A DNA stretch of 64,000 bases from Apoderus coryli. Taxonomy: Eukaryota > Arthropoda > Insecta > Coleoptera > Attelabidae. The notes below the pieces were generated by a model. The model did no database searches and was not told the DNA's origin. It worked only from the letters and a program-made list of their open reading frames with translations. Numbering within the stretch: position 1 is the first letter of the stretch; every line of letters starts with the position of its first letter. The position numbers and the translations under genes were made by a program. This document shows positions 12,856 through 53,700 of this stretch, piece after piece. Where the stretch lies: NCBI GenBank assembly GCA_911728435.2, contig OU452199.1:44223004-44287003 (forward strand), read 5' to 3'.

Positions 12856-13369
12856 TGTTCCGTGACGTACCAATGTACATATATTTTCTAACATATGATT
12901 GTAATTCTTAATATTTTTATTATAATTGCTGGTAGCTAACCAACGCATTTCTCGAATTCCCCTCGTATTTGCAATTTAGCGTATATTAGTGCAAATTTAC
13001 CTACACACGCATAGTTAATGTTTAAATGAGAAATATTTATCTGTTGTTGTTTTTTTTTGCTTTGTATACTTGGCAGTGGTATGTTTTCGTTCGGCCTCTT
13101 GTAGATGAATATTAGTGGTAGTAGCAGAAGTTAACATTTTCGCTCCCTTTAAGAACAATAATTTGATACATGCTAAGTGTTGTTGTGATTGTGCAATTTG
13201 GTATTGTTATTGACTGACCGCTTGTGACATCTTGGTGGTTGCTGTTGAATTGGATAAGCAGAGCCGGCTCTTATCATCTACCCTGCTGAAGACAAGAAGG
13301 TAAGAGGCCATTATTTTGATATTGCTGCCAAGGTTTCACTAACTTGTTCATTTCGCTTTTACTCAAACA
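12856..13369 (+). repeat. BEL/Pao left LTR (514 bp)
   Basis: Starts TGTTCCGTGACG and ends ACTCAAACA (TG...CA). The copy at 18961-19474 has the same length, and I see no difference between the two by eye, which points to a very recent insertion. It should hold the promoter and polyadenylation signals, but I do not see a clear TATA box that I would place. Confidence 0.95.
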
Positions 13370-13373
13370 TTTT

Positions 13374-13390
13374 TGGTCCTTCGAGCCGGA
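13374..13390 (+). other. Primer-binding site for tRNA-Tyr
   Basis: TGGTCCTTCGAGCCGGA begins four bases after the LTR. Its reverse complement equals the CCA end plus 3' acceptor/T-arm sequence of animal tRNA-Tyr as I remember it. This is where minus-strand DNA synthesis would start. Confidence 0.85.
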
Positions 13391-13709
13391 TTATATAGCT
13401 CATTTGTTGCATAAAATACGCTAAATTTTGTTGTTTTTTTGAATTCAAATAGTAATTTATTAAAATATTAAATTTCATATTTCGCGCATATAGTTTAAAT
13501 TTAAAATATATTTTCAAGGTCTCTGTTTATCGCAAGTCCGAACAAAGTTTTACAGTTTTTTTTTTGTTTTGTTTCGTTGAATTGGTTTAGAACTGAACTC
13601 TCGCACTTTATATTTCGTTTTTGTTTTGAATATTTTTTTTAATACAGTATTCTGTTACCGTGTTTAAAATACTTAGTATTTCGATTTTCGTTTTCAGTTA
13701 ATTATTGAC
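13391..13709 (+). other. BEL/Pao 5' leader
   Basis: AT-rich untranslated leader between the primer-binding site and the gag-pol start, about 320 bp. It probably holds packaging signals, but none can be read from sequence alone. Confidence 0.7.
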
Positions 13710-16700
13710 ATGTCGAACACAAATAAAATCAAACAACATCTAGCATTACGTGATGCCGACGTTTATGAACTTGCTGAAATTAAAACTAGAGCTTTTACTG
13801 CGGTTGAAGATGAGGCTGCACGATCAATTTTTAAAGTTCTTTACAAACGAGTTGCTGTAATTCATGACGATTTTGTTAAAAATAATTCCTCATTGATAGC
13901 GTTATTGGCCACTACTGAAAATCCTGATTTAGAGTTGCATAAAAATATTAGAAATCAATTTGTGATTGATTGTGCAGAAATCGAGTCGATTTATGACAGA
14001 CTTTTTGTTAAACAGACTGTTGTTTTGCCGCCGGAGCCTGCAGGGGAATCAAATCTTCGACATATTAAATTGCCACAAGTCGATATTCCTAAATTTTCGG
14101 GTCTCTATACCGATTATAAAACTTTTATTGATATTTTCGATTCTTTGGTACATAACAATCCAACTCTTTCTAATATCGAGAAGTTTACTCATTTAAGAAA
14201 TTCATTAACTGGTTCTGCGTTGAAGCTTGTTAGTAGAAAAGCTTTAACCGATGAAAATTATGCTCAAGCTTATGCTTCTTTAACTAAAAATTATCAGAAT
14301 AAACGTATGATTGCAAATTCGTATTATAAAAATTTAGATAGTTGTTCTAAATTAAAACCAAATCCAAGCGCGGATGATTTACGTACGTTGGTCGAAATTT
14401 TTGAAGAAAATATTGCCGCTTTTGACTGTTTAGATTTTCCTATTGGGGAATGGGATTTTTTACTTTACCATATGATACTTAATCGATTAGATGATGATAC
14501 TATTTCCAAATTTGAATTTGAAATTTCAACTAATGATAAAGATTATATACCGTCTTTTGAAACACTTGTGAAATTTATTACTCGTCGCTGTAATGCATTA
14601 GATAGTGTTGAAGCTTCGCAATCGCATAGCCTATCTAGAAAGCCAAATGGTAAACCCAACTTCTCTAAATTTACTATCGATAAACAACGTCACTCGTCCT
14701 CTTCATTTTTTGCAAATACTCAATCGGTACCACTTTGTCCCTTTTGCTCAAACTCACATAGAATATATGAATGCCCTGATTTTCATAAAAAATCTACCCG
14801 CGATCGTTTTAGCTTTATTAAGCAGCGAAGTTTGTGTATAAATTGCTTTGGTTCAGGACATTCATGCAAGAATTGTAAATCGAAAGATAGTTGCAAGGTT
14901 TGCAAACAGAGGCATCACACTTTGCTACATTTTGATGATCATATCACTTCTAACGTAAATAGACCTTCACCGCAAAATAGTACCCCAGTTGAAAACATAC
15001 CTTCAACTAGTCAAGGTCATACGGTTACAACGCTTCACGCAACTCCACATATCTCGCCTACTGGTAACAATAGATGTTCATCGGTTTTGCTCTCAACAGC
15101 AATCGTGGAAATTGTTAATTCTCGAGGCACTTATGAAAAGTGTCGCATTATAATAGATAGTGGTTCTGAAGTTAGTTTTATAACACAGAAATGCGCTCAT
15201 AGATTAGGATTGGTCATTTCTCCTACTAATATTGCTGTTAATGGTGTGGGTGAAATGAGATCCTCTACTTCGCTAGGGGGTGTTACATGTACAATACGCC
15301 CAGTAAATAAGCAATATCCTCGGTTCGCCTTTGACGCCTTTGTATTATCAAAAATTTGCACATATTTGCCTCCTCAGAAACTTGATAGTAGGTCTTGGTC
15401 TCACATTTCAAACTTAAATCTAGCAGATCCTAGTTTTGAAGTTCCAAGCTCTATAGATGTATTAATTGGTGCCGAGCTATTTCCCCAAATCTTACTTAAT
15501 GGAAAAATTTGTGGTGATTCTTCACAACCCTACGCTTTGAATACAATTTTTGGTTGGATTTTGATAGGAAAACTTTCGACACATCTACCCTCCCAAATAA
15601 ATACATTTTTTTGTTCGTCAGATCTCAGTAACTTGGACAACACGCTCAAAAGTTTTTGGGAACTTGAAAATGTCCCCGCTGTTAAATGTGTCGCCCCTGA
15701 TGATGCCGCTTGTGAGCAACATTATTCTCAAAATTCTTTTCGTGACGAAACAGGTCGTTACACGGTTGCACTTCCCTTTCGGGAACCTATTCCAAACTTT
15801 GGCGACACTAGGTCATTGGCACTCCGTCGGTTTTTATCGTTGGAGCGCCGTTTGATTATAGATTCTAATCTTTATAGTAGTTATTGTACCTTCATGAAGG
15901 ATTACCTGGACAGTGGACATATGGAATTATGCACAATCGACACCTCAGAAAATTCGTACTTCATTCCGCATCATTGTGTTCTGAAACCTGAGAGTATAAC
16001 TACCAAGCTTAGAGTTGTTTTCGATGCGTCAGCGAAGGTTCCTGGTTATCCTTCTTTGAACGATTCATTATATGTCGGTGAAAAACTCCAAAACGACATC
16101 ACTTCTGTTCTTCTTAATTTTCGGTTTCATGCATATGCCTTTACAGCCGATATAAAGCAAATGTATAGGCAGATTTTGGTGTCTCCAGAGCATCGTAATT
16201 ATCAAAAGATATTGTGGAGATTTTCGCCCAATGACCAAATTCAAGAATTTAAATTAAACACTGTTAGTTTTGGTATTAGTTCTGCACCTTTTCTGGCATT
16301 AAGAACGTTGAAACAACTTAGTGCAGACGAGAAGTTGCACTTTCCTGCGGCGTGCAGGGCATTAGATACAGACGTCTATATTGATGATATAGTGACAGGT
16401 AGTGACTCTGTCGATGGTGCGCTTGCGCTGCGAAAAGAGCTTATTGAACTTCTAAAGGGTGCAGGATTTTCTCTTCATAAATGGTCAAGTAATGATCCAC
16501 AAATTTTGGCAAATTTGTCTGAGGACAATCTTTGGGCTAAAACACTTTCGTTTGATTTGGAAAAGGACAATGTTGTCAAAATCTTAGGCCTTCAATGGCA
16601 CCCTTTGATCGATTCATTTTCATATACAGTCCAACCCTTTAACCGTCCCTGTACCAAACGCACAATTCTCTCAGAATTAGCAAGAATTTATGACCCGTTA

Positions 16701-18905
16701 GGATTTCTCGCACCGCTTTCTGTAGTAGCTAAATTGCTAATGCAACATATCTGGACGCTTGGTCTGGATTGGGATGACCCTACCCCTCCTATTGTGGAAA
16801 ATCATTGGAAGCAATTTAAACAAGAATTACCTCTTTTTGAAAAGTTTAACTTACCGCGCCGTTTGATTGAGAACAATTATTTCTCGTGTGAAATTCACGC
16901 GTTTTGTGACGCCTCCGAAAGGGCTTACGCTTCCGTTGTATATTTTCGTGTTTTTACTGCCTCAAATATTTATAAAACGTTTTTTGTTTGCGCTAAATCG
17001 AAAGTTGCTCCACTTAAACGTGTTTCGCTACCACGATTAGAACTCTGCGCCGCTGTGCTATTGTCAGACCTATTTAAATTTGTTTTAAGTACTTTTGCTG
17101 GAAAAATTCGTTTCACCAAATTTTATGCCTGGTCTGACTCTACTGTTGCTCTAGCTTGGATAAAATCCTCACCACATCGGTGGAAATCGTTCGTTAGTAA
17201 CCGCGTTTCTCATATCCAAGAAAATGCTCCCCCTAATATTTGGCATCATATCTCTTCGACACAAAACCCTGCAGATTGTGCAACTAGAGGACTACTTCCG
17301 TCCGAATTAATCAACCATCCCCTATGGTGGAAAGGTCCTAATTTTCTCAATCAAAGTGAAACTTGGCCCGAACAGCCTGATATTACAAATGAAAATAGCG
17401 CTCTTATCGATAACGAACACAGAAATATTACACTCGCGGTATTCTCAAATTTTGACGCGTTGGATAATCTTTTAGAAAGATTTTCATCACTAAATAAAAT
17501 ACAACGAATAGTAGCTTATGTTTTACGATTTTTAGATAATCTGAAATCTCGAAATGCAACTACTGGACCCTTGACAAATTCAGAAAAGCAATCGGCATTA
17601 CAGGCATTAGTACAGAGAGCTCAAGAAACTGCATTTGCAGACGATCTTTATAAATTAAAACGAGGTAGAGTGATCTCCAAGCCGCTTCGGAAATTAAGCG
17701 TATTTCTCGATACACACGGATTAGTCAGGGTCGGTGGTCGTTTGAAAAATTCTGATTTGGAATATGACCAAAAGTATCCCTATTTACTACCTCGAGTTTG
17801 TCGGCTTACAGATTTAATCATTGAGGAATATCATAAGAAATATTCTCACCCCGGTATACAAACGTTACAATATCTGTTATCACAGAATTTTTGGATTTTA
17901 GCTCCAAAACGGGCAATAAAAAACGTTGTCTCAAAATGTTTAAAATGTTGGCGGTTAAAACCATCCCATTTTCAACCCCCTATGGGAAACTTACCCTTCT
18001 CCCGCGTTTCACAACTGAAAGCTTTCTCCCATTCTGGAGTTGATTACGGGGGCCCTTTCCATATTACTCTAGGCAAGCACAGAGGTGCTAAAACTCATAA
18101 AGCATATATTTGTCTCTTTGTGTGTTTTGCTACTAAAGCAATTCACATAGAACTTGCATCAGATCTAAGCACGGAAGCTTTCTTGGCAGCATTGCGACGA
18201 TTCATTGGTCGTCGTGGTCGTGTATCGCATTTATATAGCGATTGTGGCACCAACTTTGTGGGTGCAAATAAATACATTTCAGATATAATGAAAGACGTTG
18301 CCATGCAAGAATCCATTGATTGGCATTTTAACCCTCCAAGTGCCCCCCATTTTGGTGGCATTTGGGAAAGCGGAATAAAAGCTGCTAAAACCCATCTTTA
18401 TCGTGTTATCGGATCTCAGATTCTCACATATGAGGAGCTAAACACTGTTTTAGTACAGGTTGAAAGTATCTTAAACTCTCGCCCAATCTCGCCATTAAGT
18501 TCTGACCCAACCGATTTGTCGGTCTTATCGCCCGGTCATTTTCTCACATTAGAGCCACTTAGTTGCTTACCCGATCCCGATTTAACCCATTTTAAAATTA
18601 ATCGTCTTGACAGATGGCAGCTTTTACAACGTTTTCAAGCTGATTTCTGGGCCAGATGGCATAAAGAGTATTTGCATACGCTGCAACAAAAATCAAAATG
18701 GACCACTGATTGTCCTGTTAAATTGGGTGATATGGTCATTTTAAAAGATGATTGTTTGTCTCCATTAAAATGGATGATTGGCCGAATATCTGACTTAAAC
18801 TATGGTTCAGATGGAGTAGCGAGAGTGGCTTCAGTAAAAACAAAAAATGGTCTATTTAAAAGACCTTTAGTAAAACTTTGTCCGTTGCCTATTAATTCTC
18901 AATAA
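13710..18905 (+). CDS. BEL/Pao gag-pol polyprotein, 1731 aa
   Basis: A single intact frame encodes capsid-like Gag and all Pol enzymes. Approximate residues: Gag core with LPQVDIPKFSG at 120 (DUF1759 type); Cys/His knuckles at 340-355 (CPFCSNSH...C) and 376-410; aspartic protease DSGSEVSF at 483; reverse transcriptase with VVFDASAKV at 769, TADIKQMYRQ at 812 and the catalytic YIDD at 890; RNase H-like part HAFCDASERA at 1062 and WSDSTVALAWI at 1141; integrase zinc domain (YHKKYSHPG...CLKCW) about 1370-1410; integrase core with Asp in GVDYGG (1443), Asp in YSDCGTNF (1508) and Glu in IWESG (1551); C-terminal DUF5641-like WQLLQRFQADFWARW at about 1635. YIDD rather than YVDD and the DUF1759/DUF1758 arrangement mark it as BEL/Pao. 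The start is the first ATG of the frame. All catalytic residues I looked for are present. Confidence 0.97.
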   Translation: MSNTNKIKQHLALRDADVYELAEIKTRAFTAVEDEAARSIFKVLYKRVAVIHDDFVKNNSSLIALLATTENPDLELHKNIRNQFVIDCAEIESIYDRLFVKQTVVLPPEPAGESNLRHIKLPQVDIPKFSGLYTDYKTFIDIFDSLVHNNPTLSNIEKFTHLRNSLTGSALKLVSRKALTDENYAQAYASLTKNYQNKRMIANSYYKNLDSCSKLKPNPSADDLRTLVEIFEENIAAFDCLDFPIGEWDFLLYHMILNRLDDDTISKFEFEISTNDKDYIPSFETLVKFITRRCNALDSVEASQSHSLSRKPNGKPNFSKFTIDKQRHSSSSFFANTQSVPLCPFCSNSHRIYECPDFHKKSTRDRFSFIKQRSLCINCFGSGHSCKNCKSKDSCKVCKQRHHTLLHFDDHITSNVNRPSPQNSTPVENIPSTSQGHTVTTLHATPHISPTGNNRCSSVLLSTAIVEIVNSRGTYEKCRIIIDSGSEVSFITQKCAHRLGLVISPTNIAVNGVGEMRSSTSLGGVTCTIRPVNKQYPRFAFDAFVLSKICTYLPPQKLDSRSWSHISNLNLADPSFEVPSSIDVLIGAELFPQILLNGKICGDSSQPYALNTIFGWILIGKLSTHLPSQINTFFCSSDLSNLDNTLKSFWELENVPAVKCVAPDDAACEQHYSQNSFRDETGRYTVALPFREPIPNFGDTRSLALRRFLSLERRLIIDSNLYSSYCTFMKDYLDSGHMELCTIDTSENSYFIPHHCVLKPESITTKLRVVFDASAKVPGYPSLNDSLYVGEKLQNDITSVLLNFRFHAYAFTADIKQMYRQILVSPEHRNYQKILWRFSPNDQIQEFKLNTVSFGISSAPFLALRTLKQLSADEKLHFPAACRALDTDVYIDDIVTGSDSVDGALALRKELIELLKGAGFSLHKWSSNDPQILANLSEDNLWAKTLSFDLEKDNVVKILGLQWHPLIDSFSYTVQPFNRPCTKRTILSELARIYDPLGFLAPLSVVAKLLMQHIWTLGLDWDDPTPPIVENHWKQFKQELPLFEKFNLPRRLIENNYFSCEIHAFCDASERAYASVVYFRVFTASNIYKTFFVCAKSKVAPLKRVSLPRLELCAAVLLSDLFKFVLSTFAGKIRFTKFYAWSDSTVALAWIKSSPHRWKSFVSNRVSHIQENAPPNIWHHISSTQNPADCATRGLLPSELINHPLWWKGPNFLNQSETWPEQPDITNENSALIDNEHRNITLAVFSNFDALDNLLERFSSLNKIQRIVAYVLRFLDNLKSRNATTGPLTNSEKQSALQALVQRAQETAFADDLYKLKRGRVISKPLRKLSVFLDTHGLVRVGGRLKNSDLEYDQKYPYLLPRVCRLTDLIIEEYHKKYSHPGIQTLQYLLSQNFWILAPKRAIKNVVSKCLKCWRLKPSHFQPPMGNLPFSRVSQLKAFSHSGVDYGGPFHITLGKHRGAKTHKAYICLFVCFATKAIHIELASDLSTEAFLAALRRFIGRRGRVSHLYSDCGTNFVGANKYISDIMKDVAMQESIDWHFNPPSAPHFGGIWESGIKAAKTHLYRVIGSQILTYEELNTVLVQVESILNSRPISPLSSDPTDLSVLSPGHFLTLEPLSCLPDPDLTHFKINRLDRWQLLQRFQADFWARWHKEYLHTLQQKSKWTTDCPVKLGDMVILKDDCLSPLKWMIGRISDLNYGSDGVARVASVKTKNGLFKRPLVKLCPLPINSQ

Positions 18906-18960
18906 TTTTTTTTTATTTTGCAATAATTAGTTTTAAAATAATATTTTAAGGTCGGTGGTA

Positions 18961-19474
18961 TGTTCCGTGACGTACCAATGTACATATATTTTCTAACATA
19001 TGATTGTAATTCTTAATATTTTTATTATAATTGCTGGTAGCTAACCAACGCATTTCTCGAATTCCCCTCGTATTTGCAATTTAGCGTATATTAGTGCAAA
19101 TTTACCTACACACGCATAGTTAATGTTTAAATGAGAAATATTTATCTGTTGTTGTTTTTTTTTGCTTTGTATACTTGGCAGTGGTATGTTTTCGTTCGGC
19201 CTCTTGTAGATGAATATTAGTGGTAGTAGCAGAAGTTAACATTTTCGCTCCCTTTAAGAACAATAATTTGATACATGCTAAGTGTTGTTGTGATTGTGCA
19301 ATTTGGTATTGTTATTGACTGACCGCTTGTGACATCTTGGTGGTTGCTGTTGAATTGGATAAGCAGAGCCGGCTCTTATCATCTACCCTGCTGAAGACAA
19401 GAAGGTAAGAGGCCATTATTTTGATATTGCTGCCAAGGTTTCACTAACTTGTTCATTTCGCTTTTACTCAAACA
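18961..19474 (+). repeat. BEL/Pao right LTR (514 bp)
   Basis: Same ends and length as the left LTR. The sequence just upstream (AAGGTCGGTGGTA, 18948-18960) is the likely second-strand priming site, although it is a poor polypurine tract. Confidence 0.95.
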
Positions 19475-34489: not shown

Positions 34490-34972
34490 AGCCCTAGGAT
34501 GAACCCATTAGTTTTTGGTTGAAATCGCTTCTTCAGGTGTCGAAAAACGTTGACCTCTCAGTTTGTTATTTACGTACGGGAATAAAAAGAAGTCATTCGG
34601 TGAGAAGTCAGGACTATACGGCGGATAACTCATCAAATCGATATTTTGGGTGCTCAAAAATGCAGTTGTTTGAGCCGATGTGTGAGAGCTCGCATTGTCG
34701 TGGTGAAGAGTGATCCGTCTTCGGAGGTTGGTTTTCCTGATTTCTTGGAAGACAACTGGCAAACAAATGGTTGTGTACCACTCAGAATTGACTGTTCTGC
34801 GTTGTTCTAGTGGTACAGTTGCGACATGTCCAGTGTTTTCGAAAAAACAGGCGACCATTTGCTTGGAAGTGCTTCGTGCGCGAACAACTTTTGTTGGATG
34901 TGGCTCATCTTGAAGCACCCATACAGTCGACTGTTGTTTACTTTCGGGTTCATTCGCGTAAATCCACGATTC
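34490..34972 (-). pseudogene. Mariner transposase, C-terminal part (split by copia)
   Basis: Minus-strand frame 34918-34508 encodes the catalytic half of a mariner transposase: DEPHPTKV, the second Asp in ITLHHDNASSHTSAQ and the third in YSPDFSPNDFFLFP. From the Asp of HHDN, 34 residues lead to the Asp of PND, the DD34D spacing of mariner. The copy ends soon after RFSTPEEAIS, short of a full C-terminus. The N-terminal half, including the first catalytic Asp (VTGDES), is on the far side of the copia insertion at 37069-37400. Confidence 0.85.
34968..34972 (+). repeat. Copia target-site duplication, left copy
   Basis: GATTC immediately before the left LTR, repeated at 37069-37073 after the right LTR. 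Five bases is usual for Ty1/copia. Confidence 0.9.
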
Positions 34973-35145
34973 TGTTGAAGTTTACACTGTATATATTCAA
35001 GTATTGTTATTTGACATATATATTGTTGTTAAAAATATTGTTAGAATAGATTTATTGAGTTTTGTCACAAGAAGTTTATATTTCTTTTTATTCAAATATC
35101 ATTTCAGAATGTTTAAGTACTAGGGTGGTTTATCGAACTTTAACA
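34973..35145 (+). repeat. Copia-like left LTR (173 bp)
   Basis: Begins TGTTGAAG and ends CTTTAACA. It differs from the right LTR at three of 173 positions by eye, all substitutions. Confidence 0.92.
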
Positions 35146-35156
35146 TGGTAGCAGAG
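35146..35156 (+). other. Primer-binding site, initiator Met tRNA type
   Basis: TGGTAGCAGAG follows the left LTR directly and is complementary to the 3' end of metazoan initiator methionine tRNA, a common primer for Ty1/copia. Confidence 0.8.
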
Positions 35157-35158
35157 CG

Positions 35159-35438
35159 TGGTTCCTTCTTCTCTTTCTCCGTCTCCTTTTTATCTTTAGC
35201 CTCTTTCTTATCATCACTGGTGGATGCTGCAGCAGAGGTACCAGCCTTCTTATCATCAGCACTGGTCGTCTTTTTGTCATCCTTCTCTTCGTCAACTTCC
35301 ATTTTCTCGTCACGATGTCTACGTTCACGATCACGACGACGTTGACGTGCGGCAATACTCAATAAAGCTGTCTGGACTTTCTCGCGTTCCTCACCCTTCG
35401 TTTCTTCCATTGGAGCCGGGTAAGCGTAGAGGCTGGGC
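35159..35438 (-). pseudogene. Rpn2: Captured fragment of 26S proteasome subunit Rpn2 (PSMD1)
   Basis: Read on the minus strand this is one open stretch of about 93 codons: PSLYAYPAP, then EREKVQTALLSIAARQRRR, a Lys/Glu/Asp-rich linker with EKMEVDEEKDD, and a run ending EKEKKEP. Human PSMD1 as I remember it has the same order: FAYPAP, EKVSTAVLSI, a charged linker with EEKMEVDEAE, then EKKKEPEP, just before its C-terminal domain. Rpn2 is the large scaffold subunit of the 19S regulatory particle. The fragment lacks both ends of the gene, has no intron visible in 280 bp, and is joined at one side to the copia primer-binding site and at the other to integrase. It lies antisense to the LTR promoter. 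It is far more GC-rich than its surroundings, as a real host exon would be. Confidence in the family is high; the origin (cDNA or genomic exon) is open. Confidence 0.85.
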
Positions 35439-35444
35439 GAAGTA

Positions 35445-36866
35445 ATGTTAGATAGCGAAGTATGTGAAAGCTGCGTCTATGGCAAATCTCATGTGTTGAA
35501 GTTTGGTTCAAGAGAAAGAGCTAACACACCAGGTGAGCTAATACATTCTGACGTATGCGGACCATTTGAAAATTCCTTCAGTGGTTATAAATATTTCGTC
35601 TTATTTAAAGATGATTACAGTAAATTCCGTTATGTTTATTTTATGAAAGAAAAGTCAGAAGTAGCTATACATCTAAAATCAGTTTTAGCAAAGATAAATT
35701 CTACTGGTTATGTTGTTAAGGAGCTTTTAAGTGACAACGGAGGAGAATTTGTTAATCATTCTGTTAAGCAAATATTAAACAGAAATGGAATTTGCCATAG
35801 ACTGACTATGCCATATTCGCCTCAACAAAATGGATGTTCTGAAAGAGAAAACAGAACATTGGTGGAGACAGCGAGATCGATAATGCATGCGAGAGAAGGA
35901 TTACCTCAAAAGTTATGGGCTGAAATGATTCAAACAGCTGCCTACATTTTAAATATATCAGGTGTTTCAGGTGTTAATAATAAATCACCATATGAAATTT
36001 GGTATCAAAAGAAACCCAAATTGACCCATCTTCGCGTAATAGGAACTATATGCTATGTTCATATTCCAAAACAAAGAAGGAAAAAACTAGAGAAGAAAGC
36101 AACTAAAGGCATTCTTGTTGGATATGAAGGCTATGAAGGTTATAGAGTTTGGTGTCAAGAAACTGGAGAAGTTATGCGATCTCGAAATGTTACGTTTGAC
36201 GAAAAACCATCAAAACTTAGTGAAACAAGATTAAGCCCAGTACATTTACATAACGAACCTGAAGAAATTTCTGAAAGTAGATTAGAAATAGAAAATTCTG
36301 AAAATGAATTTAAAATTACTGTCAAACCTGCTTTATATTTTTTGGGTATCCAAATTGAAAGAAATAGTACAGATGGTTCTATTAAAGTCAGCCAACAGGC
36401 ATATGCTAGAAAAGTATTGGATCGCTTTTCCATGAGCCAATGTAAGCCTGTTAGCACTCCAATTGTGAAAGAAAATGTTCAATCAGGGAAGGATGAAGAT
36501 TCCAGTGTGATTGAAATTTCTTATAGAGAAGCTGTGGGAGCATTAATGTATTTAATGATTGGAAGTCGTCCAGATTTAGCCTACGCTATAGGAGTAGTTT
36601 CTAGATCACTAGAAAATCCTAGTCATGCTGATTTTGTTAAAATTAAAAGAACATTTCGATACCTTAAAGGCACTTTAGACTCTGGTATAACTTATCAACG
36701 CGATGCAAATAAAAACGTTATAGAATGTTTTACCGATGCAGACCACGGAGGTGATGAACTTACGCGGCGATCTACATCTGGAGTTGTATGTATGTATGCA
36801 GGAGGTGCAATATCTTGGATGAGTCAAAGACAATTTCGAGACTGCAAGAACTTCGAGGACGATTGA
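35445..36866 (+). CDS. Copia-like integrase plus truncated RT/RNase H ORF, 473 aa
   Basis: Frame opens in the integrase zinc region (CESCVYGK, residue 7). Core integrase follows: HSDVCGPF (about 35), LLSDNGGEF (about 96) and Glu in NGCSERENRT (about 135), the D,D,E triad. After the integrase C-terminus (GYEGYRVW, SRNVTFDE) the text jumps at about residue 288 from an ENSENE-rich linker to ITVKPALYFLGIQIE, the RT thumb, so the RT fingers and palm with the YVDD site are missing. RNase H begins (CFTDADHGGDELTRRSTSG, about residue 425) and breaks off after SWMSQRQ into unrelated residues. Both deletions left the frame open. The upstream in-frame stop (35427-35429) lies within captured sequence; the first Met is only the first available one. 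Probably no function on its own, though an integrase-like product could be made. Confidence 0.85.
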   Translation: MLDSEVCESCVYGKSHVLKFGSRERANTPGELIHSDVCGPFENSFSGYKYFVLFKDDYSKFRYVYFMKEKSEVAIHLKSVLAKINSTGYVVKELLSDNGGEFVNHSVKQILNRNGICHRLTMPYSPQQNGCSERENRTLVETARSIMHAREGLPQKLWAEMIQTAAYILNISGVSGVNNKSPYEIWYQKKPKLTHLRVIGTICYVHIPKQRRKKLEKKATKGILVGYEGYEGYRVWCQETGEVMRSRNVTFDEKPSKLSETRLSPVHLHNEPEEISESRLEIENSENEFKITVKPALYFLGIQIERNSTDGSIKVSQQAYARKVLDRFSMSQCKPVSTPIVKENVQSGKDEDSSVIEISYREAVGALMYLMIGSRPDLAYAIGVVSRSLENPSHADFVKIKRTFRYLKGTLDSGITYQRDANKNVIECFTDADHGGDELTRRSTSGVVCMYAGGAISWMSQRQFRDCKNFEDD

Positions 36867-36895
36867 GAGTAACCAATACATTGAATAAGGGAAGG

Positions 36896-37068
36896 TGTTG
36901 AAGTTTACACTGTATATATTCAAGTATTATTATTTGTCATATATATTGTTGTTAAAAATATTGTTAGAATAGATCTATTGAGTTTTGTCACAAGAAGTTT
37001 ATATTTCTTTTTATTCAAATATCATTTCAGAATGTTTAAGTACTAGGGTGGTTTATCGAACTTTAACA
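36896..37068 (+). repeat. Copia-like right LTR (173 bp)
   Basis: Same ends and length as the left LTR, preceded by the polypurine tract AAGGGAAGG and followed by the duplicated GATTC. Confidence 0.92.
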
Positions 37069-37400
37069 GATTCATCACCTGTCACGATGTCATAGACGTG
37101 TTTCGAAGCACCGCGATCATAATTTTTGAGCATTTCTTTCGACCAATCGACACGAGCCTTTTATTGAGCGATTGACAAATTCTGTGGGATCCAACGCGAG
37201 CAAATTTTTTTGACAGTCAAATGTTTATGCAATATTGAATGTATGCTGGTCCCTCTAATGCTTAAGGTTGTCTCAATCTCTTGATAGGTCATATGACGAT
37301 CTTGCAATCTCAGTTCGCGCAGAGTATCAAAGGTTTTCGGAACAACAACTGATTTATTATACCTACGTCTTATATACCAAGGAGAAATGTATCAAAAAAA
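37069..37400 (-). pseudogene. Mariner transposase, N-terminal part (split by copia)
   Basis: The minus strand encodes LRELRLQDRHMTYQEIETTL, a helix-turn-helix region, then SRWIPQNLSIAQ, an in-frame TAA, ARVDWSKEMLKNYDRGASKH and VYDIVTGDES with the first catalytic Asp. It continues into 34490-34972 once the copia element and one GATTC copy are set aside. The stop shows the mariner was decaying independently of the insertion. The outer terminal inverted repeat was not identified. Confidence 0.75.
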
Positions 37401-38862: not shown

Positions 38863-39579
38863 TTAAGAAGTAGATTCAAAAGAAATATTACTGTCATCAT
38901 GGGTGTTATTATTAATAGTAAATAAATATGAATATATATTACTGATTTCATTAGAGTCTTTCTTTTTGTTTAACGTATTTTCGGTATTATACATTTCAAA
39001 CATTTCAATGAAAAGTCTTTTATTTTGATTTTGTTCACAGGCAAGGATTTTTACATTATTTAAGTCAGGAAAATGATTTGTATTAATACAATGTTCAGCC
39101 AATGCACAAGTTTTTTTGTTAAGTCGAATATCACTTTTATGTTGGGTAATTCTATCTTTAAAAACTCGGGAAGTTTGTCCGATATATACTTGGTTACAGT
39201 CTGAACATGGTATATTATAAACTACATTAGATTTTTTTAAAATGGAGTCTTGATCTTTAGTTTTTGAATATAAATTGTTAATCGTTCTTGATGACTTGCT
39301 GACAATTTTTAAATTTGGAAGATCTTTTTTTATAATTTTAGTTATTTTTGGGGTTATAAATTTTATATTTGGAAAAGAAATATAAGAAATTTCGTTATTA
39401 ATGTTAGAATCATGGTTGTTTCTAACTTGAACATTTGTATTCTGATTTTCTGGTGTATTGTATAATAATTTTCGTGGATATGAATTATCGAGTAGAATAT
39501 TAAACAATTTTTTGTAGTTCTCTTCTTTGAATTGAGGATGACAAATTTTGTTAATTCTGTTTTTTAACCCTAATACCAA
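38863..39579 (-). CDS. Penelope-like element C-terminal GIY-YIG endonuclease, partial
   Basis: An open 238-codon minus-strand frame. N-terminal residues carry a YPRKLL region and, at about residue 70, the SFPNIKFITPKITKIIKKDL block typical of the RT-to-endonuclease linker. VVYNIPCSDCNQVYIGQTSR (about 142-161) is the GIY-YIG nuclease signature with its Cys pair. FKDRITQHKSDIR (about 164) and the downstream AEHCINTNH and LFIEMFEM blocks complete the domain. The RT domain that should come before it is absent, so this is a 5'-truncated copy, but its endonuclease frame is intact. Sequence at 38341-38862 is likely its 3' UTR. Confidence 0.85.
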   Translation of the reverse strand: MVLGLKNRINKICHPQFKEENYKKLFNILLDNSYPRKLLYNTPENQNTNVQVRNNHDSNINNEISYISFPNIKFITPKITKIIKKDLPNLKIVSKSSRTINNLYSKTKDQDSILKKSNVVYNIPCSDCNQVYIGQTSRVFKDRITQHKSDIRLNKKTCALAEHCINTNHFPDLNNVKILACEQNQNKRLFIEMFEMYNTENTLNKKKDSNEISNIYSYLFTINNNTHDDSNISFESTS

Positions 39580-39639
39580 ATTTTAGAATAGTTTTATTCA
39601 AAGTACACAAGCCTTAGAATTCGCCATGTTTTGCATATA

Positions 39640-41702: not shown

Positions 41703-42415
41703 TGCAGGGTGTCCGGAAAAAGGAGGTCAATCCGTTAACCACAGATTCCTTGAGCAAAAATAATATGAGTTTTGACATGCCATTTTTCATTTTAACCCTC
41801 CATGTTCGATATACAGGGCGTCAAAGTTGAAAATTTAAAACCAATACTTTTAAATAATTCTAGTATTTATTGAGATATTGGATTCAAATTTAATGTGTTG
41901 CTTCAGCATAAAGAGCTACTTCTTTCCAGAGAAGAACACAAAAAAGAATTTCTTAATAGCCGAAATACGGAATATACAGTACCCATTGACCAACCCCCCA
42001 CAAGTTTTTATTACCTACGCCAATGACTTTTAAACTAAATTTTTATAGGTCACTATGTTTTTTGATTATTTTTTAACTCTTATAAAATTTGGATAAAATC
42101 ATTTGCGTAGGTCATAAAAACTTGGGCGGGTCAATGGGTACTGAACATATCGTATTTTGGCGATTTAGAATTTTTTGTTGTGTTCTTTTTTGGAAAGAAG
42201 TAGCTCTTTAGGCTGAAGCAACACACTAAATTTGAATCCAATATCTCAATAAATACTAGAATTATTTAAAAATATTGGTTTTAAATTTTCAACTTTGATG
42301 CCCTGTATATCGAACATGGAGGGTTAAAATGAAAAATGACATCTTAAAACTCATATTATTTTTGCTCACGAAATCTCTGGTTAACGGATTGACCTCCTTT
42401 TTCGGACACCCTGTA
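41703..42415. mobile_element. 713-bp palindromic (foldback) element
   Basis: The left end (TGCAGGGTGTCCGGAAAAAGGAGG) is the near-exact reverse complement of the right end (CCTCCTTTTTCGGACACCCTGTA), and similarity holds almost to the centre: CCTCCATGTTCGATATACAGG, AAAATTTAAAACCAATA and GTACCCATTGACC all recur inverted. The arms are about 340 bp with a short loop near 42050-42080. No coding capacity. The right flank is TA; the left is CA, perhaps a decayed TA. An internal TACAGGGCG sits at about 41815. A transcript would form one long hairpin. Confidence 0.85.
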
Positions 42416-50300: not shown

Positions 50301-50840
50301 AACATACTGAACTTAATTGATATAGAATTAAATTAAAAATTTTTTTAACTTATCTCTCCCTGTCTAGAACTCAAATTATCCCAGTCCCTCAACCACCTGT
50401 CGCAAACTTTATCTCGCTGAAACAACAACAGCGAATTTTCTATGAAAATGGATGTAGCTATAAGTAATGCAAAATATCCCAAACAAAAACTTTTACTTTT
50501 TTGTTAGTTCATTGTACGTATATAAAATTTTATGTTTGCTGAAAAAGTTTAAGCTTATTTTACCTCCCCATCATCTCCCTGTTGTCTGACGTCGCGCCTG
50601 GAAATCAAAACCAGTTGCCTGGAATATTTGTCCAGAAAGTTTCTAACTGTAAAACTTCACACTTTTTTGCGATGTAATTATTAGAAAATTGGAAGTGTTT
50701 TTTATACACTGTTTTCCAAAATCAACGCAACTATATGTATGAGTTAGAACCACAAAAACATTATAGAGTTAAAATTACTCAGCCCTGCTTCGAACTACAC
50801 TCATTGCATTGAAAATTTGTTTCTATAAATATTGTAGTCC
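50301..50840. other. No gene recognised
   Basis: AT-rich sequence leading into the tandem array; no supported feature. Confidence 0.4.
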
Positions 50841-50844
50841 TAGA

Positions 50845-53700
50845 CGAGCAACTAGAAAAGCTCTTCTGGCCCTAGAAGAGCTAATGTAGACTGTATTTGA
50901 CCTAGAAGAGCTACTAAAATCCATGATGAGCTATTGTGGTCCTAGACGAGCAACTGTAGTTTGAGAAAAGCTCTTTTGACCCTAGAGGAGCTGATGTAGG
51001 CTTTATTTGTCCTAGCAAAGATACTAAAATCCATGATGAGCTATTGGAATCCTAGACGAGCAACTGTAGTTCTAGAAAAGCTCTTCTGACCCTAGAAGAG
51101 CTAATGTAGGCTGCATTTGACCTAGAAGAGCTACTAAAATCCATGATGAACTATTGTAGTCCTATTCGAGCAACTGTAGTTCTAGAAGAGCTCTTCTGAC
51201 CCTAGCAGCGTTGATGTAAGCTGTATTTGTCCTAGAAGAGCTGTAGTGCCACCTTTATTGTAGTTCATCTTTCTTCATCAAAACAACTTATAGTTGGACC
51301 AACGTTTTATTTTTCTTAATAATCAACAATTTACACTTATGATAATTTCGATGATACATGTTTATATACAATGAATACATGGTATTTACATCTTTTTCGT
51401 TTATTAACTAATTATTTCTAATTATAAAGGTGTCTGTATTTATATGGCAATGTACGTGCTAGGTCTAGGTCAGCGCCAAGTGTGGCGCCTTGGATTATGT
51501 TATTGAAAACACAATTGTTTTGTTATGTGTTTTGGATTATATTATTATAACACAATAATTGTTTTGTATTACGTAGATTTGTTATGCCAAGTTTGTTTAT
51601 GTAAGCCTAAGATTAATAGGGTGAAATCTTGGTTAATGCAGGGTGCAAACCGAGTGCACCACAGAGCTACTAAAATCCATGATGAGCTATTGTAGTCCTA
51701 AATCAGCAACTGTAGTTCTAGAAGAGCTCTTTTGACCCTAGAGGCGTTGATGTAAGCTGTATTTGTCCTAGAAGAGCTACTAAAATCCATGATGAGCTAT
51801 TTTAGTGCTAGACGAGCAACTGTAGTTCTAGAAAAGTTCTTCTGACCCTAGAAGAGCTAATGTAGGCTGCATTTGTCGTAGAAGAGCTACTAAAATCCAT
51901 GATGAACTATTTTAGTCCTAATCGAGCAACTGTAGTTCAAGAAGAGCTCGTCTGACCCTAAAAGAGCTGATGTAGGCTGTATTTGTCCTAGAAGAGCTCC
52001 TAAACTGCTTGATGAGCTATTGTGGTCCTAGACGAGCAAATATAGTTCTAGAAAAGCTCTTCTGACCCCAGAAGAGCTGATGGAGCCTGTATTTGTCCTA
52101 GAAGAGCTACTAAAATCCATGATGAGCTATTGTGGTTCTAAATCAGCAGTAACTGTAGTTCTAGAAGAGCTCTTTTGACCCTAGAAGAGCTGATGTAGAC
52201 TGTATTTGTCCTAGAAGAGCTACTAAAATCCATGATGAGCTATTGTGGTTCTAGATCAGCAGTAACTGTAGTTCTAGAAGAGCTCTTTTGACCCTAGAAG
52301 AGCTGATGTAGACTGTATTTGTCCTAGAAGAGCTACTAAAATCCATGATGAGCTATTGTGGTCCTAGATCAGCAGTAACTTTAGTTCTAGAAGAGCTCTT
52401 TTGACCCTAGAAGAGCTGATGTAGAGTGTATTTGTCCTAGAAGAGCTACTAAAATCCATGATGAGCTATTCTAGTTCTAAACGAGCAACTGTAGTTCTAG
52501 AAGAGCTCTTCTGACTATAGAAGCGTTGATATAGACTGTATTTTTTCTAGAAGAGCTACTAAAATCCGTGATGAGCTATTGTAGTCCTAAACGAGCAACT
52601 GTAGTTCCAGAAAAACTCTTCTGACTCTAGAGGCGTTGATGTAAGCTGTATTTGTCCTAGAAGAGCTACAAAAATCAATGATGAGCTATTTTAGTCCTAG
52701 ACGAGCAACTGTAGTTCTAGAAAAGCTCTTCTGACCCTAGAGGCGTTGATGTATTTGCTGTATTTGTCCTAGAAGAGCTACTAAAATCCATGATCAGCTA
52801 TTGTGGTCCTAGATCAGCAGTAACTTTAGTTCTAGAAGAGCTCTTTTGACCCTAGAAGAGCTGATGATGAGTGTATTTGTCCTAGAAGAGCTAATAAAAT
52901 CCATGATGAGCTATTGTGGTCCTAGATCAGCAGTAACTGTTGTTCCAGAAGAGCTCTTTTGACCCTAGAAGAGCTGATGTAGACTGTATTTGTCCTAGAA
53001 GAGCTACTAAAATCCATGATGAGCTATTGTGGTTCTAGATCAGCAGTAACTGTAGTTCTAGAAGAGCTCTTTTGACCCTAGAAGAGCTGATGTAGACTGT
53101 ATTTGTCCTAGAAGAGCTACTAAAATCCATGATGAGCTATTGTGGTCCTAGATCAGCAGTAACTTTAGTTCTAGAAGAGCTCTTTTGACCCTAGAAGAGC
53201 TGATGTAGAGTGTATCTGTCCTAGAAGAGCTAATAAAATCCATGATGAGCTATTGTTGTCCTAGATCAGCAGTAACTGTTGTTCTAGAAGAGCTCTTTTG
53301 ACCCTAGAAGAGCTGATGTAGACTGTATTTGTCCTAGAAGAGCTACTAAAATCCATGATGAGCTATTGTGGTCCTAGATCAGCAGTAACTTTAGTTCTAG
53401 AAGAGCTCTTTTGATCCTAGAAGAGCTGATGTAGAATGTATTTGTCCTAGAAGAGCTACTAAAATCCATGATGAGCTATTGTAGTCCTAGACGAGCAACT
53501 GTAGTTCTAGAAAATCTCTTCTGACCCTAGAGGACCTGATGTAGGCTGTATTTGTCCTAGAAGAGCTACTAAAATCCATGATGAGCTATTATAATCCTCG
53601 ATGAACAACTGTAGTTCTAGAAGAGCTCTTCTGACCCTAGAAGTAGGAAGTGTATTTGTCCCAGAAAAGCTACTACAATCCATGATGAGCTATTTTAGTC
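50845..53700. repeat. Tandem array, 110/113-bp unit, about 22 copies
   Basis: The phrase CCATGATGAGCTATT recurs every 110 bp in the first part (50921, 51031, 51141, then 51677, 51787 and so on) and every 113 bp in parts beginning about 52117, where an AGT is added (AGCAGTAACT against AGCAACT). The 113-bp form alternates with the 110-bp form in blocks, suggesting higher-order amplification. Each unit is itself built from about four variants of CTAGAAGAGCT. No unit encodes protein: CTAG puts stops in many frames. A 422-bp insert interrupts it at 51242-51663. Confidence 0.95.
51242..51663. mobile_element. Solo LTR inserted in the tandem array (422 bp)
   Basis: Begins TGTAGTGCCACC and ends GAGTGCACCACA; the ends are short inverted repeats (TGTAGTGC against TGTGGTGC). 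GAGC lies on both sides (51238-51241 and 51664-51667), and removing the insert with one GAGC restores the 110-bp unit exactly. TG...CA ends with a 4-bp duplication suggest a Gypsy-type LTR left by recombination. Its internal region is gone. Orientation could not be fixed. Confidence 0.8.

Follow-up and report, generated by a model that had tools for sequence, protein, structure and literature searches.

A copia-type retrotransposon of Apoderus coryli with an antisense Rpn2 fragment at the end of its primer-binding site

RESULTS

A defective copia-type element carries antisense Rpn2 sequence

In the 64,000-nucleotide stretch of Apoderus coryli DNA that was analyzed (the window), positions 34973–37068 hold a short, defective, non-autonomous derivative of a Ty1/copia-type retrotransposon in which a fragment of the proteasome gene Rpn2 (PSMD1) lies in antisense at the end of the primer-binding site (PBS). 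This chimera probably arose by mis-priming: plus-strand strong-stop DNA of the element would have been extended on Rpn2 mRNA for about 275 nt before it jumped to the minus strand in the integrase region.

The element is bounded by a 5′ LTR at 34973–35145 (TGTTGAAG...TTTAACA) and a 3′ LTR at 36896–37068, both on the plus strand and 173 bp long, with 3 differences between them over 173 bp. The LTR ends (TG...CA) and the 5-bp target-site duplication (GATTC, at 34968–34972 on the left and 37069–37073 on the right) are both Ty1/copia features. An 18-nt PBS (TGGTAGCAGAGCGTGGTT, plus strand, 35146–35163) lies directly 3′ of the 5′ LTR and a purine tract (AAGGGAAGG, plus strand, 36887–36895) directly 5′ of the 3′ LTR, and the order between the LTRs is PBS, antisense Rpn2 stretch, pol remnant and purine tract. 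The original prediction had described a unit delimited by LTRs, PBS, purine tract and 5-bp duplication, and all four features were found.

When the flanks are joined without the element, a mariner transposase frame on the minus strand is restored and reads ...VTGDESWIYANEPESK... across the empty site. The part downstream of the insertion in the transposase direction (34511–34967) was assigned by a Pfam match and the empty-site frame, and the upstream part (37074–37391) by the empty-site frame; a Pfam scan of a 76-aa piece of the upstream part gave no mariner match. This mariner copy has a stop codon further upstream of the insertion site.

Other features of the window

A tRNA scan and an Rfam scan at gathering thresholds gave no matches in the 64-kb window. 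A young-looking BEL/Pao element lies at 12856–19474, with identical 514-bp direct repeats (12856–13369 and 18961–19474) and an open 1742-codon frame containing DUF1759, Pao peptidase, integrase zinc and DUF5641 domains. On the minus strand at 38866–39582, an open frame contains a GIY-YIG nuclease domain, presumably as in Penelope-like elements. An inverted repeat at 41716–42403 has 235-nt arms that are 94% complementary and spaced by 218 nt, and satellite-like arrays with periods of 110 and 113 bp occupy 50742–53696.

Identity, source and copy number of the captured fragment

The minus-strand product of 35159–35437, which had been predicted to match Rpn2, matched Pfam RPN2_C with an E-value of 1.7e-11 (44.7 bits; cut-off 26.8); in PDB it matched chains that carry the name 26S proteasome non-ATPase regulatory subunit 1, with a best E-value of 5.9e-9. 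At E ≤ 0.1, Pfam matches were found in none of 5 shuffled controls and none of 3 plus-strand translations of the fragment region. The fragment occupies 35160–35438 (279 nt, minus strand) and is 95.7% identical (267/279) to an Rpn2 exon of the same genome at C20:8747737–8748015, so the Pfam, PDB and genome comparisons agree with the prediction of Rpn2 in reverse within the element. The predicted antisense orientation stood, and the predicted boundaries, 35159–35438, were refined to 35160–35438, the first 6 nt being common to the element and the gene. An extension of the homology to about 35452, based on a 118-aa translation with an RPN2_C match running past 35437, was ruled out because the comparison with the gene and with native copies ends the fragment at 35438.

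The 12 differences between the fragment and the gene comprise 4 synonymous and 8 non-synonymous changes, as expected for unconstrained sequence. At C20 the Rpn2 frame continues beyond both fragment ends (...MPKLELKSNAKPSLYAYPAP... and ...EKKEPEPNFEILKNPARV...), and a likely splice acceptor, recognized by eye, lies just upstream of the gene stretch; the fragment therefore comes from inside one exon, and for this reason intron loss cannot prove an RNA template.

A search of the 428-Mb genome (129 contigs) placed the fragment at two sites, the element and the one Rpn2 exon (2 of 2 candidates scored), so the chimera is single-copy within this search. Further copies of the chimera had been proposed as a check, and none appeared besides the element itself among these two scored candidates. 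The claim that the unit moved as a whole thus divides: the LTRs and target duplication support integration as a unit, spread of the chimera is unsupported by a fragment found once outside the gene, and mobility is shown for the single event that inserted it. In viral contigs, 18 pattern matches to the Rpn2 piece contained no relatives, and in the plasmid set the piece had no match.

The pol remnant and its deletions

The pol remnant (35439–36832, plus strand) comprises a partial integrase zinc finger, the integrase core, an SH3-like domain, a C-terminal reverse transcriptase (RT) fragment and partial RNase H, all within a single open frame at 35430–36866. Pfam placed rve at residues 28–127, SH3_retrovirus at 188–256 and the C-terminal part of RVT_2 at 289–343, the last of these under its curated cut-off (24.4 vs 31.6 bits). 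Integrase precedes RT, which is the Ty1/copia order, and the best PDB match was 7z0h, labelled Integrase, which we take to be the Ty1 integrase.

Our yardstick for pol was a frame of 899 codons that spans integrase, RT and RNase H, taken from a record that is filed under actinomycete plasmids (L010, NZ_CP115454.1). The remnant is collinear with this frame: the match begins with the latter half of the integrase zinc finger, leaves out residues 330–597 (the RT core) and ends at residue 778. A second record filed in the same way (L011, NZ_CP115302.1) also has a copia-type integrase-RT frame. The two were nearly identical in their tblastn results and in their repeats, and neither showed an LTR pair. 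Our guess is that both represent plant retrotransposon contamination of rhizosphere isolates.

A whole-element search of the genome, in which 40 of 111 candidates were scored and family counts are accordingly lower bounds, gave at least 36 family loci (L022–L057), with longest stop-to-stop frames of up to 1153 codons. Relative to four of these (L022, L023, L026 and L029), the chimeric element lacks about 800 bp of RT at a 10-nt direct repeat (36299–36308, plus strand); a deletion at a direct repeat is a usual mark of template switching. A second deletion, in RNase H (36832–36837, plus strand), removed about 300 bp relative to L022, L023 and L026. Gag, protease, complete RT and complete RNase H are absent or truncated, so the element cannot encode them, and its mobility would have needed proteins from relatives.

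The sequence TGGTAGCAGAGC right behind the LTR is a feature of GalEa elements that also occurs in a second copia family of this genome and so is not diagnostic; it forms the first 12 nt of the PBS and is the PBS described as conserved in metazoan GalEa elements in extracts from PMC5445492. Searches with the pol remnant gave no relative in viral contigs, no relatives among 12 pattern matches in the general genome-contig set and no match in the phage set. The pattern TGGTAGCAGAGCNNGGTT was found in 9 stretches of viral contigs, none of which encoded a relative by tblastn.

Junctions read against native relatives

The junctions were defined by comparison with rows containing an LTR end and PBS. 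In 10 of the 12 rows the native order is LTR, TGGTAGCAGAGCGTGGTTCC and then CAGAAGACTT; the two non-native rows are the chimeric element and a copy designated L024. Antisense Rpn2 at the 5′ junction reads ...CGGTTCCGGTTCCTTCTTC, and the chimera follows native sequence through GGTTCC and Rpn2 from there on. The 5′ switch point (35160–35165, plus strand) is thus a 6-nt overlap, GGTTCC, common to the native element and antisense Rpn2 and corresponding to nt 15–20 behind the LTR, at the PBS end. From the chimera alone, native sequence had been predicted to nt 18 with an overlap of TGGTT (nt 14–18), whereas the relatives extend native sequence to nt 20 with GGTTCC as the overlap. The 3′ switch point (35438–35439, plus strand) is blunt, with Rpn2 ...GGGC followed by GAAG... 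of native pol. The overlaps are therefore 6 nt and 0 nt, and the 3′ junction offers no homology signature for a second jump, which counts against the reading that we prefer.

Breaks at the PBS end in two copia families

We compared 48 LTR-PBS sites, 47 from a pattern search together with L034; the inverted arm of L024 was excluded. They form two copia families (25 and 23 sites) that differ in LTR ends and leaders. The search pattern includes the first 16 nt of the PBS, whose sameness is therefore largely due to selection, and the free test begins at nt 17: nt 17–18 were TT in 48/48 sites, while nt 19 was C in 23 of 25 sites of family A and G in 21 of 23 sites of family B. The families agree through nt 18 and diverge at nt 19, as would follow from renewal of these 18 nt by the tRNA in each cycle. 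Copying of the tRNA commonly ends at the methylated A at position 58, after 18 nt, and nt 19 is presumably the one that faces position 58.

A gap-tolerant scan of the 52 nt behind nt 18 showed that native sequence was left in 7 of the 48 sites, after nt 20, 19, 28, 18, 38, 20 and 55; L072, which has a 1-nt deletion, continues in native sequence and was not counted. Four of the seven departures, in the chimeric element, L024, L081 and L086, fall right after nt 18–20. The binomial probability of this under a uniform distribution is 0.0006, for a window of positions chosen post hoc, and the hotspot rests on seven departures, of which L081 and L086 may be simple deletions. Many other family copies are plain deletion derivatives, which also counts against the preferred reading.

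In L081 (C14:3381198) and L086 (C18:16682568), both of the second copia family, the PBS is joined after nt 18–19 to sequence whose motifs, read by eye, resemble the RNase H and protease regions of copia pol. At another locus (L060, C5:27244980–27245320), two LTR-PBS-leader stretches that belong to one copia family face each other about 200 bp apart, with C at nt 19 in one arm and T in the other. This large inverted copy is perhaps another fold-back product.

A copy with tRNA-like sequence and an inverted PBS

The copy L024 (L024:436–2270; C13:5739235–5741069), the most informative of the four departures, is a recent copia copy with identical LTRs (177/177) and a 5-bp duplication. Its layout is LTR, PBS, 16 nt of tRNA-like sequence past nt 20, an inverted PBS with LTR end, and mid-pol; the inverted arm is exact over 22 nt and overlaps the tRNA-like stretch by its first 5 nt. 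The 16 extra nt fit the T arm and beyond of an initiator tRNA. Compared with the complement of Drosophila tRNAiMet (PMC4506996), the first 22 nt differ at nt 13, 14 and 19. At nt 13–14, in the T stem, the copies compared here differ from Drosophila, and all 48 sites carry GCGTGG. A tRNA-iMet pattern was not found in the general genome-contig and viral-contig sets. This is the layout that would result if a strand copied the tRNA too far, folded back onto the PBS it carried and was then joined to mid-pol, so that a misdirected transfer of the same kind probably happened at least once more in the element's family.

DISCUSSION

In reverse transcription, synthesis of plus-strand strong-stop DNA covers the LTR and a portion of the tRNA primer, after which this strand has to transfer to the minus strand (extracts from PMC3187697). 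It follows from the scheme that mRNA copied during minus-strand synthesis gives a sense insert, and mRNA copied during plus-strand synthesis gives an antisense one. A plus strand that copies mRNA should thus leave an antisense insert that starts at the PBS end, with loss of the intervening sequence, and all three were observed.

We propose the following route. In a virus-like particle from a working relative, plus-strand strong-stop DNA would have started at the purine tract and run through the LTR and the PBS, the latter copied from the tRNA. Its 3′ end (...GGTT or ...GGTTCC) would have annealed to GGAACC in a co-packaged Rpn2 mRNA rather than to the PBS complement, and the mRNA would have been copied 3′ to 5′ for about 275 nt, giving antisense sequence. 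The strand would then have moved, without overlap, to the minus strand at the integrase zinc-finger region, so that everything between the PBS and that point was lost, and integrase would have inserted the product into the mariner copy with a 5-bp duplication. The plus strand as the one that jumped, the mRNA template, the supply of proteins in trans and the rearrangements within one cycle are what we infer from the structure. Divergence was 3/173 between the LTRs and 12/279 between the copy and the gene. These values do not differ significantly (Fisher p = 0.18) and are compatible with capture during the insertion cycle; capture older than the insertion is possible.

Ordinary LTR-mediated capture, in which minus-strand synthesis switched to an antisense Rpn2 RNA and then back to the PBS of the element RNA, appears rather unlikely. 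For LTR-mediated retrocopies, the route described in extracts from PMC5408686 is a template switch between the RNA of the element and a cellular mRNA, and the 6-nt overlap at the PBS would equally serve a minus strand jumping back. However, antisense Rpn2 RNA would be required as a template. Minus-strand switching on mRNA does not readily account for host fragments that lie antisense in LTR elements. Nor does capture from an antisense RNA predict the breaks right after nt 18–20 in several copies or the foldback copy L024, where copying of the primer by the plus strand accounts for the tRNA-like sequence past nt 18.

The blunt 3′ junction would also suit filler DNA from break repair inside an already inserted element, for which genomic DNA could have been the template, as the fragment lies within one exon. 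We consider this quite improbable, since the 5′ break coincides with the PBS end, as it does in three other copies of two families, and the LTRs, target duplication and pol frame are well preserved. That the assembly wrongly joined a copia element to an Rpn2 exon is hardly credible: 12 differences over 279 positions, including 8 non-synonymous ones, separate the fragment from the gene, its 5′ junction is at the molecularly expected position, and breaks at this same position in other copies of two copia families would be unexpected from an assembly error.

Mis-priming of plus-strand strong-stop DNA on mRNA thus remains our preferred reading, and the value of the chimera lies in its intact LTRs, PBS and target duplication, in a source gene and native relatives that can be read from one and the same assembly, and in a break position set by the tRNA primer. 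More tentatively, failed plus-strand strong-stop transfer may be a recurrent and distinct route of gene capture, in which the tRNA-templated 3′ end primes on co-packaged mRNA and gives antisense fragments immediately after the PBS; located where the element transcript begins, these could feed antisense silencing of the parent gene. We regard this as possible rather than probable. It leads to a testable rule: antisense captures should start 18–20 nt past the LTR and show a short match to the end copied from the tRNA. If the rule holds, such events would be a source of loci born as antisense RNA to host genes, comparable to the sex-determination case in Plutella. A transcript from the LTR would carry antisense Rpn2 from about 15 nt behind the LTR, and its pairing with Rpn2 mRNA and a putative silencing effect are possible. 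Among the literature matches listed, none described antisense capture from plus-strand strong-stop DNA; Tan et al. 2016 was outside the scope of that search.

The original prediction regarded host gene capture by copia-type elements in animals as rarely reported. Capture by such an element is supported by the Rpn2 gene and native relatives in the genome; its rarity was not upheld, as LTR-mediated capture in animals has already been described (extracts from the review PMC5408686, citing Tan et al. 2016). Metazoan GalEa-type Copia elements have the same PBS, TGGTAGCAGAGC, directly after the 5′ LTR (extracts from PMC3587641 and PMC5445492), a comparison that rests on the PBS, most of RT being deleted in the chimeric copy. 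The LTR-mediated retrocopies of Tan et al. 2016, as reported in extracts from PMC5408686 and PMC9674220, likewise contain host sequence in an LTR element; they have short overlaps at switch points, where the chimera has 6 nt at one junction and 0 nt at the other. The chimera has the host sequence between LTRs and the target duplication by which such retrocopies are recognized. It differs from the retrocopies as described in those extracts in having an antisense insert that adjoins the PBS and for which a plus-strand step is the best explanation, and in having an overlap at only one of its two junctions. Maize Bs1, a plant element known here by its description in extracts from PMC5408686, is likewise an LTR element involved in copying cellular genes.

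In Plutella, antisense retrocopies are known to lie next to fragments of LTR elements, and the example of Pxyfem shows that retrocopies attached to such pieces can give rise to small RNAs that target their parent gene (extracts from PMC9674220). Pxyfem, the W-linked antisense PxyMasc retrocopies of Plutella xylostella, resembles the chimera in combining an antisense host fragment with LTR-element sequence in an insect and in the proposed template switching. According to the same extracts, Pxyfem is present in multiple copies, extends across exon junctions and produces silencing RNAs, and no LTRs were found for it, whereas the chimera has intact LTRs, a PBS and a target-site duplication and was found in one copy.
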